NCBI RefSeq assembly: GCF_900111765.1
Contig: NZ_FOIB01000005.1
Span: forward strand, 310,001-374,000
Direction of reading: 5' to 3'
Origin: Myxococcus fulvus
Lineage (GTDB): Bacteria > Myxococcota > Myxococcia > Myxococcales > Myxococcaceae
DNA: 64,000 nucleotides
Shown: piece by piece, positions 23,111 to 25,414 of the stretch
Position numbering within the stretch: the first letter of the stretch is position 1
Layout: each line of letters opens with the position of its first letter
Position numbers and translations under genes: made by a program
Notes under the pieces: generated by a model
What the model saw: the letters and a program-made list of their open reading frames with translations, nothing else
Told to the model about the DNA's origin: nothing
Database searches by the model: none

Positions 23111-24427
23111 CTATAACGAAGGGTCCTGGTGATTGCTCGGACCCACGGGTGCGGCCCACAGGTAGTGTCCGGAAACCTCCGCCCGTGACGGAGGTGTCCA
23201 CAGCCCTGGGAGCCACACCACGGTGCCCTCGGCGTCCAGCACCACCGGCCGCGAATCCCTCGACTCCGCGGGCACCCGAAGATCCACCAACACATCCTGC
23301 AACCGGCGTTGTTTCTCGCCCGCGCGCACCCGGTCTCCGGGCCTGCGTGTCCGCACGGTCAGCGGCCAGAGGACATCCCGCGCCAGCGCCAGCCCGTGCA
23401 TGCCCGGAGGCGGCTCGCGCGACTCCACGCTGAAGCGCCACCCCGTGCCCTCCAGCACGCCGCAAGCCCCCTCCCCCGTCAGCACCATGGCCCGCACCGG
23501 AGGCGCCTCCACCTCCGACGACGCCACGCAGCGCACCCGGCCACCTGTCGCCCGGAGCCGCAACGCGCGCCCCACCGTCGCCGAGCCGCCCTGCGCCACC
23601 GCCCGCAGCGCGCGCTCCACCATCGCCGCGTCCGCCACCACGTCGTGCGCGGCCAGCAGCCTGGCGAGCACCCTGCGCCGCAAGGGCACCTCCAGCGCGC
23701 GCACCGCCACCGCGTCCAGCGCGCCATCGGGAAGCCGCACCCGCTCCCACGCCGCGTCCGCCAGGTCGCTCAGCAGCGCGTCGTCCTCGGCCGCCAGCCG
23801 CGCGTACGACGCGAGCCTCGCGTCCACCTGGAAGCCCGCCGCGCTCGACAGGGCCGGCAGCACGTCGTGGCGCACCCGGACCCGCAGGAAGGCGGGGTCG
23901 TCGTTCATCTCATCTGTCACATAGCCGACGCCCTGCTCCTTCAAGGAGGCCACCAGCTCCGCCCGCGTCAGCGACAGCACCGGCCGCACCAGCGCGCCCC
24001 GCGCCTCGTGGATGCCCACCGCGCCCCGCGTCGACGTGCCCCGCGCCAGCCGCATCAGCAGCGTCTCCGCCTGGTCGCTCGCCGAGTGGGCCGTCGCCAC
24101 CGCGGACAGGCCCCGCTCTCGCCGCACCGCCTCCAGGGCCTCGTAGCGCGCCTGCCGTGCGCGGGCCTCGAGTCCGGGGCCGCGAGCCAGGGTCAGCGTC
24201 CGCACGTGACAGGGCACGCCCAGCTGCTCGCAGAGCGAGCCCACGGCGCGGGCCTCCGCTCGGGATTCGGGACGCACGCCATGGTCCACCGTGCAGACCT
24301 CCACTCGCAGCCGCAGCCGCTCTCGCACGCTCGCCGTGCCGACGAGCAGGGCCACCGAATCCGCGCCTCCGGACACGGCGCACAACACGGACCGGCCCTC
24401 CAGTCCGAGGCGCGCATACGTGTCCAT
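23111..24427 (-). CDS. tilS: tRNA(Ile)-lysidine synthase
   Basis: 438 residues. Attaches lysine to C34 of the CAU-anticodon tRNA(Ile), switching it from Met to Ile decoding; essential in most bacteria. The PP-loop AVSGGADSVALL lies near the N-terminus, followed by HGVRPES, TAHSASDQAETLLMRLARG and the C-terminal TilS domain (TRRPGDRVR...KRLQDVLVD-type, here QRRLQDVLVD). I choose the ATG at 24427, which has GAGG six bases upstream and places the PP-loop at the usual distance. An ATG at 24472 in frame lacks a ribosome site. Confidence 0.95.
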   Translation of the reverse strand: MDTYARLGLEGRSVLCAVSGGADSVALLVGTASVRERLRLRVEVCTVDHGVRPESRAEARAVGSLCEQLGVPCHVRTLTLARGPGLEARARQARYEALEAVRRERGLSAVATAHSASDQAETLLMRLARGTSTRGAVGIHEARGALVRPVLSLTRAELVASLKEQGVGYVTDEMNDDPAFLRVRVRHDVLPALSSAAGFQVDARLASYARLAAEDDALLSDLADAAWERVRLPDGALDAVAVRALEVPLRRRVLARLLAAHDVVADAAMVERALRAVAQGGSATVGRALRLRATGGRVRCVASSEVEAPPVRAMVLTGEGACGVLEGTGWRFSVESREPPPGMHGLALARDVLWPLTVRTRRPGDRVRAGEKQRRLQDVLVDLRVPAESRDSRPVVLDAEGTVVWLPGLWTPPSRAEVSGHYLWAAPVGPSNHQDPSL

Positions 24428-24522
24428 CAGTGTCCTCTTCAGCAACTGCGTCGCGGGTCCAGTGGGAGACATCTGCGGGGGCGGAATGGATTGTCGGGTA
24501 ACAGGGTTACAGAGGCGCGCGG

Positions 24523-24551
24523 TTGAAGGCAGGGGGGTCGGTTCTTATGAT
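24523..24551 (+). promoter_or_regulatory. Sigma-70-type promoter of a candidate small RNA
   Basis: TTGAAG (24523-24528), a 17-base spacer, then TATGAT (24546-24551): near-consensus and rare in such GC-rich DNA. A start near A24558 is predicted. No gene lies between it and the terminators about 125 bases downstream. Confidence 0.6.
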
Positions 24552-24557
24552 CGTCAC

Positions 24558-24714
24558 ACCGGATGGGCGCGGTCGCGGAAGCAGAAATATGCGCGACACC
24601 GGGCGTTGTTGAGGGGACGGTCGACTTTTCAAGGTGTTGGACCTAGGGGTCCCCCCCCTCCCCCTCTGGGTCCACGGGACCGCTGGGAGATCCACTCCCG
24701 GCGGTCTCTCTTTC
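24558..24714 (+). ncRNA. Candidate small RNA with its own promoter and tandem terminators
   Basis: Predicted transcript of about 155 bases (or about 205 to the second terminator) between divergent tilS and the CopG-like genes. It has a well-formed promoter at its 5' end and intrinsic terminators at its 3' end, and carries no plausible coding frame with a ribosome site. Inside, GGACC-TAGG-GGTCC (about 24640-24653) makes a short hairpin. It is followed by an 8-C run, a T and a 5-C run: an unusual unpaired C-rich stretch that could be a seed for targets with G-rich ribosome sites. I cannot match it to a named family from sequence alone. A relation to the myxobacterial developmental sRNA Pxr, which I recall as having a C-run loop, is only a guess. 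Confidence 0.45.
24679..24714 (+). terminator. First intrinsic terminator of the candidate small RNA
   Basis: A 12-base arm GACCGCTGGGAG (24679-24690) pairs with CTCCCGGCGGTC (24696-24707), with one T-G wobble and a 5-base loop. It is followed by TCTCTTTCC. Confidence 0.65.
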
Positions 24715-24718
24715 CGAA

Positions 24719-24765
24719 ACGCCCCGGTCCTCCCATCGTGAGGCCCGGGGCGTTTCCTTTTTCGC
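24719..24765 (+). terminator. Second intrinsic terminator of the candidate small RNA
   Basis: AACGCCCCGG (24719-24728) pairs perfectly with CCGGGGCGTT (24746-24755). The stem is followed by TCCTTTTTC on the plus strand. The T-run is on the plus side only, so it terminates rightward transcription, which means something upstream is transcribed rightward. Confidence 0.7.
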
Positions 24766-24844
24766 GCCCGGCTGGATACGTCAGGCGGCACTGAACATGT
24801 CCGAGCAGGGAGCCGACGGGCGCGGAATGAGTCGTCCTAAACCG

Positions 24845-24873
24845 TTGACCCTCTTGGGCGTCTGTCGGATAAC
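24845..24873 (+). promoter_or_regulatory. Sigma-70-type promoter for the CopG-like gene pair
   Basis: TTGACC (24845-24850), a 17-base spacer, then GATAAC (24868-24873). It is placed 52 bases upstream of the first CopG-like ATG and downstream of the tandem terminators, so the pair has its own promoter. Confidence 0.65.
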
Positions 24874-24924
24874 GGCACCGGTGTGTTCAGGTCGTCACCT
24901 CGAATCCGCCCCGGAGACTCAAGT

Positions 24925-25128
24925 ATGGCAGGCACCGACAAGCGCAAGCAGTCGCTGTACTTCCCCGAGGAGATGCTGAAGGAGATTCAGGAAGAAGCGA
25001 ACCGACAGGACCGCTCTCTTTCCTGGGTTGTCCAGCAGGCGTGGAAGATCGCCCGCGAGCGCATCAAGTCGTTCCCCGCCGTCAACGACGTGACTGGCGA
25101 CGAGCGCCAGGACCCGCGCGAGGAGTAG
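24925..25128 (+). CDS. Small CopG-like (ribbon-helix-helix) protein, first copy
   Basis: 67 residues. The core KRKQSLYFPEEMLKEIQ, then RQDRSLSWVVQQAWKIAR, fits a ribbon-helix-helix fold: a short beta strand then two helices, with the LSWVVQQAW helix typical of CopG/Arc dimers. This is the small myxobacterial family I know as TIGR04563, probably DNA-binding. GGAG lies eight bases before the ATG. Its near-identical neighbour follows after 7 bases, which suggests tandem duplication and possible heterodimers. It has no toxin partner, so it is unlikely to be a plain antitoxin. Confidence 0.85.
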   Translation: MAGTDKRKQSLYFPEEMLKEIQEEANRQDRSLSWVVQQAWKIARERIKSFPAVNDVTGDERQDPREE

Positions 25129-25135
25129 CGCAGGC

Positions 25136-25414
25136 ATGGCCACCACCGACCATCGCAAGCAAAGCCTCTACTTCCCCGAGGACATGCTGGAGGAGATCCA
25201 GCGTGAGGCCACGCGGCAGGACCGCTCCCTGTCGTGGATCGTCCAGCAGGCGTGGAAGGTGGCGCGTGCCGAGATTCGGAGGATGCCGTCGGTCAACGAC
25301 GTGCTGAGCGCGCCTGCCCGTCCCGCCGCCGTCGCGGCGAGCCCGGCGGCGACACCCGCGGCCACCGCCACGCTGACGGCGGCCGCTCCGAACCCGGACG
25401 AGCCGAAGTCCTGA
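25136..25414 (+). CDS. Small CopG-like (ribbon-helix-helix) protein, second copy
   Basis: 92 residues. The first about 60 match the upstream copy closely (HRKQSLYFPEDMLEEIQ, RQDRSLSWIVQQAWK), while the last 30 are an Ala/Pro/Thr-rich tail absent from copy one. It probably acts as a dimeric DNA-binding protein. Cotranscribed with the first copy from the promoter at 24845. The divergent C-terminal tails suggest the two copies have specialised after duplication. Confidence 0.85.
   Translation: MATTDHRKQSLYFPEDMLEEIQREATRQDRSLSWIVQQAWKVARAEIRRMPSVNDVLSAPARPAAVAASPAATPAATATLTAAAPNPDEPKS

Follow-up and report, generated by a model that had tools for sequence, protein, structure and literature searches.

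A conserved C-rich-loop RNA between tilS and cdbA in Myxococcus fulvus and most of its class: a candidate anti-Shine-Dalgarno small RNA

The intergenic region at positions 24523-24765 (plus strand) of the 64,000-nucleotide stretch of Myxococcus fulvus DNA analysed here (the window) lies between tilS and cdbA, and raised the question of whether it encodes a small RNA of its own and, if so, how such an RNA would act. The tilS gene (23111..24472, minus strand) is the divergent neighbour with its start codon at 24472. The downstream genes, given in a preliminary description of this DNA as a CopG-like pair, were identified as cdbA-cdbB: cdbA (24925..25128, plus strand) is a separate gene with an ATG at 24925 and agrees in 66 of 67 residues with the CdbA of PDB 6sbw, and it is followed by a cdbB-like paralogue (25136..25414, plus strand, TIGR04563). 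CdbA is reported as an essential c-di-GMP-binding nucleoid protein, and CdbB is likewise described in the same paper (PMC7156744).

A conserved core of 77 bases was delimited at 24637..24713 on the plus strand, where covariance model R1, built from 29 sequences, scored 89.5 bits (G000:C5:334637-334713). The core includes hairpin 1 (24639..24673, plus strand), an 11 base pair stem seen in the fold and by covariation, which encloses the loop UCCCCCCCCUCCC (24650..24662, plus strand) containing CCUCC and proposed as an anti-Shine-Dalgarno seed. The exposed run of eight C, T and five C in the preliminary description was located at 24651-24664, and the loop proper is predicted to be unpaired, with 11 of its 13 bases at a probability of at least 0.96 for RNA from the proximal of the two candidate start sites described below and with values of 0.54-0.91 for RNA from the distal one. 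Hairpin 2 and a weak T-run occupy 24676..24713 (hairpin 24676-24708, plus strand), and a second terminator hairpin with its T-run lies at 24716..24762 (hairpin 24716-24756, then CTTTTT, plus strand). Both were plain in the plus-strand fold, which had a minimum free energy of -107.7 kcal/mol and a z score of -3.5 relative to dinucleotide shuffles. The strict terminator scan listed no terminator here (0.4 expected), since neither T-run is continuous (TCTCTTTCC and TTTCCTTTTT). Terminator architecture differed among families: loci of the window's own family have the second terminator hairpin and a short T-run behind the first (TCTCTTTCC, window 24676-24762), and in loci of other families hairpin 2 was the sole terminator hairpin seen, the T-run behind it often being longer (3-9). 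No credible open reading frame was found in the sRNA region, as had been proposed. Each of the listed frames either overlaps tilS or is antisense. The length of the C-run differs by 1, 2 or 3 bases among relatives, which argues against a conserved reading frame, and a coding gene was rejected on these grounds.

Compensatory changes were found in both hairpins. In alignment A1, made with MAFFT from 29 of 37 distinct cores, all cells of hairpin 1 were paired over its 11 pairs in the 29 sequences, with one pair changing on both sides, five on one side and five invariant, and the terminator helix of hairpin 2 had compensatory changes in 12 of 14 pairs. Alignment A2, which is model-fitted and so leans towards its own structure, held 71 distinct sequences drawn from 90 loci of our choosing and had 100% and 99.8% of cells paired in the two segments of hairpin 1; both partners had changed together in one sequence or more for 8 of the 11 pairs of hairpin 1 and for 13 of 13 pairs of hairpin 2, and the summed covariation score of the whole structure was reached by none of 500 shuffles. 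Pairing of hairpin 1 extended to 99.9% of cells as read and to 82.7% on the opposite strand, where it is lower because G-U pairs are used. The loop was near-invariant in both alignments with a first C-run of 4-8 bases, and CCCCUCC, which includes CCUCC, was kept in 70 of the 71 distinct rows and absent in the doubtful locus L089. It is close to certain that a structured RNA is encoded here, and by its pattern of substitutions the element is a plus-strand RNA.

The RNA is widespread in the class that holds Myxococcus and Anaeromyxobacter. When 24480-24900 was compared by blastn with 61 genomes, 45 gave a match, a number that counts the window's own genome and takes in the whole genus (27 genomes). 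Beyond the genus the match was mostly to the core, and the terminator changed in sequence while its shape was kept. R1 matched 127 of the 147 class genomes, in family f1 as well as in f2-f7, f9 and f10, and none of 48 from elsewhere in the phylum, so that the label of an orphan does not fit a gene that is class-wide and syntenic with tilS. No match was found in the other 20 genomes of the class, ten of which were searched again with a best E of 0.09, and the RNA is thus dispensable or too diverged in some lineages. A scan for exact matches to the sequence pattern, by which diverged members are missed, found 49 stretches among 84,980 named species genomes, from Myxococcus, Corallococcus, Pyxidicoccus, Archangium, Hyalangium, Citreicoccus and Anaeromyxobacter and from MAGs titled Myxococcaceae, Myxococcales, Archangiaceae, Deltaproteobacteria or Proteobacteria. 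One record titled Comamonas sp. KCTC 72670 carries the locus together with myxobacterial neighbours (L106 5703-5728) and is probably mislabelled.

A single R1 match was present in 125 of the 127 genomes. Further copies were sought in the M. fulvus genome and rejected, with one match to GGGGTCCCCCC-N0-3-TCCCCCTCT and one to R1. Elsewhere, one genome has the sRNA in two tandem copies with different terminators (L045 1994-2162), and another has a second weak match of 35 bits, a terminator-like hairpin plus terminator in which the C-rich loop is shortened (L097 2020-2088).

Two candidate promoters precede the core on the plus strand. The distal sigma-70-type promoter TTGAAG-17-TATGAT (24523..24551, inferred start near 24558), which had been recognised previously, was the only such site listed by a scan of 24000-25300, with 9 of 12 positions and 0.1 expected in shuffles. 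It is kept across the genus, TATGAT being present in 27 of 27 same-genus loci and TTGAAG in 25, with TTGATG in the other 2, and the spacer was 17 bases and once 18. A TATGAT/TATAAT-type box was found in 17 of 53 diverse loci that were hand-picked from 109 oriented loci for lineage spread, several of them from one genus. The separate promoter suggested earlier for the next genes was not listed by the scan; a TTGACC lies near 24845 and was also seen by eye in the M. xanthus locus.

The proximal candidate is a degenerate copy of an ECF-type promoter element, AGAAATA-N18-GTT (24583..24610, inferred start near 24618), and a strict GGAAT box was thus not found in the focal window. The M. xanthus AM003 copy reads GGAAATA-N18-GTT. 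Among the 53 loci, GGAATG-N16-18-GTT preceded the hairpin in 21 relative to 0.15 expected (200 shuffles, maximum 2), and its background was 34 of 6596 windows, which may include windows overlapping a true element. The relaxed form GGAA(T/A)-N17-19-GTT was found in 32 of the loci relative to 0.9 in shuffles (maximum 4) and was absent in the other 21, and the GTT of the element mostly lay 25-39 bases ahead of the hairpin. Boxes of the GGAATG-N17-GTT type are described as SigH promoters of Corynebacterium glutamicum, with a SigH/SigR-type ECF consensus (PMC10012870). Control of the sRNA by an ECF sigma factor is plausible from these boxes. No GGAA(T/A/C)-N16-20-GTT site was found close upstream of 45 inspected ECF genes, comprising 15 of 57 matches in the M. 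fulvus genome and all 30 in a genome from another family of the order (G046), and no sigma factor can therefore be named. Four GGAAC-type sites 515-777 bases upstream of ECF genes were disregarded.

Features general to intergenic sRNA genes are found in the sequence, namely an own promoter, a terminator hairpin (none being listed by the strict scan), the lack of an open reading frame and a conserved structure, and the exposed CCUCC-containing loop, predicted to be unpaired in the window's RNA, is that expected of an anti-Shine-Dalgarno sRNA. The earlier proposal of an independent sRNA gene with a C-run able to pair with G-rich ribosome sites is well supported by conservation and covariation. 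We favour, at a probability of about 0.6 on the evidence of sequence, a trans-acting sRNA that would use its loop to mask Shine-Dalgarno sequences and is perhaps under stress control. Such an RNA would be about 95-205 nt long. Some lineages would transcribe it from a housekeeping promoter, and many lineages throughout the class would use a GGAATG-N17-GTT-type ECF-sigma promoter with a start shortly before the hairpin. The stem of hairpin 1 would present CCCCUCCC as a single-stranded seed for pairing with Shine-Dalgarno regions of the GGGGAGG type; many mRNAs would be bound in this way, mostly with a block of their translation, and the RNA would act as a stress-controlled post-transcriptional regulator. 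The anti-Shine-Dalgarno mechanism is probable.

The complement of the loop core was examined before start codons. In the M. fulvus genome GGGGGAGG-N2-14-ATG occurred 128 times relative to 41 for the reversed pattern, and in G046 the counts were 36 and 10. This excess is not specific to the sRNA because it is expected wherever ribosomes use GGAGG, and all that it shows is that these sites probably serve for ribosome binding. The long loop complement AGGGGGAGGGG was not enriched in the M. fulvus genome, with 16 occurrences, one of which is the sRNA gene itself, relative to 21 for the control. No homologous target shared by M. fulvus and G046 behind GGGGGAGG-N-ATG was found at E 0.001 among the matches listed, in a comparison of 68 and 30 ORF entries of at least 40 residues (a few ORFs double) from 95 and 35 loci among the 128 and 36 sites.

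A conserved target not having been found in that comparison of two genomes, the frozen loop could alternatively be a protein-binding site, with the RNA acting as a sponge or scaffold rather than as an antisense RNA. This reading is unlikely, yet it has the further merit that conservation of the loop and inner stem spans more bases than the usual 7-10 base seed. Sponges of the CsrB type are multi-site, unlike this RNA with its one copy of the motif. The loop also contains CCUCC and is of the seed type studied in NfeR1 and GsrN (PMC10746234, PMC5869019), and the first C-run varies in length while CCCCUCC stays almost constant.

Gene neighbourhood was compared over 109 locus rows, which include some genomes twice and represent 85 distinct 150-base segments. 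Five loci that failed the orientation pattern (L080, L086, L088, L089 and L097) were left out of the locus-row and promoter counts, and all of these but L097 were kept in A2. The gap beside tilS that had been singled out for comparison with other myxobacteria is conserved: tilS was upstream of and divergent from the sRNA in 105 rows, and each of the other four has less than 470 bases of upstream sequence. One conserved locus beside tilS points to vertical inheritance. A TIGR04563 gene, the cdbA homologue, was downstream in 92 rows, on the same strand at a distance of 170-653 bases in 83 and at 2.0-2.5 kb in nine, and tilS is thus the steadier neighbour.

The position of the element on the same strand shortly before cdbA in most rows, together with the reported down-regulation of cdbA and cdbB in development (PMC8844925), would also suit a cis-acting leader or attenuator that ends or passes transcription into the essential nucleoid gene. 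We consider this improbable, since a terminator hairpin stands right behind the core, tilS is the steadier neighbour, and at one of the nine long-gap loci that was inspected a 696-residue reverse-strand ORF separates the sRNA from the cdbA homologue, so that the sRNA there is not a cdbA leader. In addition, no cdbA homologue was found in the available sequence of 17 rows, only four of which span at least 3 kb downstream and two less than 200 bases. The sRNA is tied to cdbA by position in most lineages, yet a role as cdbA leader is unlikely.

A match to the MrpC consensus TGTYN8RAC, TGTCACATAGCCGAC, was noted inside tilS at window 23915-23929, about 730 bases before hairpin 1, and a site of this type recurs in similar form in two further loci (L103 and L019). 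A site reported to bind MrpC2 and FruA cooperatively is placed "within MXAN_4360" (PMC4320627), whose locus tag immediately precedes that of cdbA (MXAN_4361), and we infer that MXAN_4360 is tilS.

A likeness to the C-run loop of Pxr had been suggested, and the RNA might accordingly be a diverged relative of that sRNA. Both have a C-run loop in the first hairpin and a terminator hairpin, and the Pxr model (RF01812) aligned in the window at 22.3 bits relative to a gathering score of 80. This match, far below the cut-off, starts at 24672 in hairpin 2 and is thus in a different register. The true Pxr of the same genome is at another locus (G000:C1:1275013, 120 bits), where in the reciprocal comparison, made at this one Pxr locus, R1 gave at most 13.5 bits and 9.2 bits at the Pxr position. 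Pxr-model matches were obtained in 95 of the 147 genomes of the class, 61 of them over the cut-off, and all 95 are in family f1, whereas the sRNA described here is also in f2-f7, f9 and f10. The likeness is therefore only the general one of a multi-hairpin RNA with a C-run in the first loop and further hairpins behind, and descent from a common ancestor with Pxr is very improbable. The loci differ as well, Pxr having a predicted sigma-54 promoter described beside or downstream of pxrR (PMC5684412) and the present RNA having tilS and cdbA as neighbours. In Pxr the loop of hairpin 1 is reported to be essential, and one C-to-A change inactivates the RNA (PMC5684412).

Eight genomes of two genera had 4-6 Pxr-model matches each, mostly in tandem arrays, and below the threshold the matches extended to many further genera of f1. 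Judged by these multiple copies and sub-threshold matches, the Rfam model of Pxr seems to be drawn too narrowly.

C-runs can form unusual DNA structures and the element lies upstream of divergent tilS, but a DNA-level or minus-strand element such as a tilS leader is scarcely credible given the compensatory changes and G-U use that point to a plus-strand RNA and the promoter and terminator hairpins on that strand, and a chance hairpin is excluded by class-wide conservation.

The sRNA family, which is present in most of a class, is apparently undescribed and belongs to a known kind, that of sRNAs with a C-rich loop. The Rfam 15 search that had been called for returned no family at gathering score in the window, and a literature search of open-licence papers, a scope that leaves aside subscription papers and supplements, found no description of this RNA. 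For myxobacteria, that search found a functionally studied sRNA only in Pxr, whose binding targets are described as unknown in PMC11928866. A second sRNA, single copy in most of the class and with a nearly frozen loop and a candidate stress promoter, would offer a genetic handle on post-transcriptional control in multicellular predators, since it is one locus and is present in M. xanthus too. It may also inform how anti-Shine-Dalgarno loops are used in GC-rich bacteria, and may matter for constructs with a native cdbA promoter, if these reach far enough upstream. More tentatively, a class-wide, ECF-sigma-driven anti-Shine-Dalgarno sRNA might slow translation generally under stress and, together with tilS and mostly also cdbA, make up a fixed module; it would probably be older than Pxr because it is wider in range.

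The best sub-threshold Rfam match in the window was alpha-r14/NfeR1 (RF02344, ar14), which was rejected at 41.1 bits relative to a gathering score of 58.8. Among 17 loci searched with the ar14 model, the window and one other locus (L029, 44.8 bits) had matches and the other 15 had none at E of 0.5 or below, and a filtered search elsewhere in the M. fulvus genome gave nothing above E 0.58. The likeness is that the hairpin loops of NfeR1 carry the anti-Shine-Dalgarno motif CCUCCUCCC and are reported to silence mRNAs with it (PMC10746234), and silencing by the present sRNA would follow from this analogy. NfeR1 differs in having several hairpins each with CCUCCUCCC, with three identical loops, relative to the one conserved C-rich loop UCCCCCCCCUCCC here.

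Another comparison, by description rather than by sequence homology, is with GsrN of Caulobacter crescentus, an sRNA linked to general stress control by EcfG/SigT, with BLASTn homologues given as limited to Caulobacteraceae (PMC5869019). Conservation in GsrN is described as highest in the C-rich loop of the 5' hairpin, and this loop base-pairs with G-rich sites of mRNAs, as proposed here. The best-studied pairing of GsrN, with katG, is activating and raises KatG (PMC5869019), so that the direction of effect may be activating and activation of some targets is possible for the myxobacterial RNA, for which ECF control is a reading of the promoter boxes. These boxes, GGAATG-N16-18-GTT at the sRNA loci, are identical in form to the GGAATG-N17-GTT of C. 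glutamicum and resemble SigR/SigH-type ECF promoters (GGAAT-N18-19-GTT), differing in that the M. fulvus copy is degenerate and a cognate sigma factor was not found, while the loop that they precede is shared in kind with both NfeR1 and GsrN.
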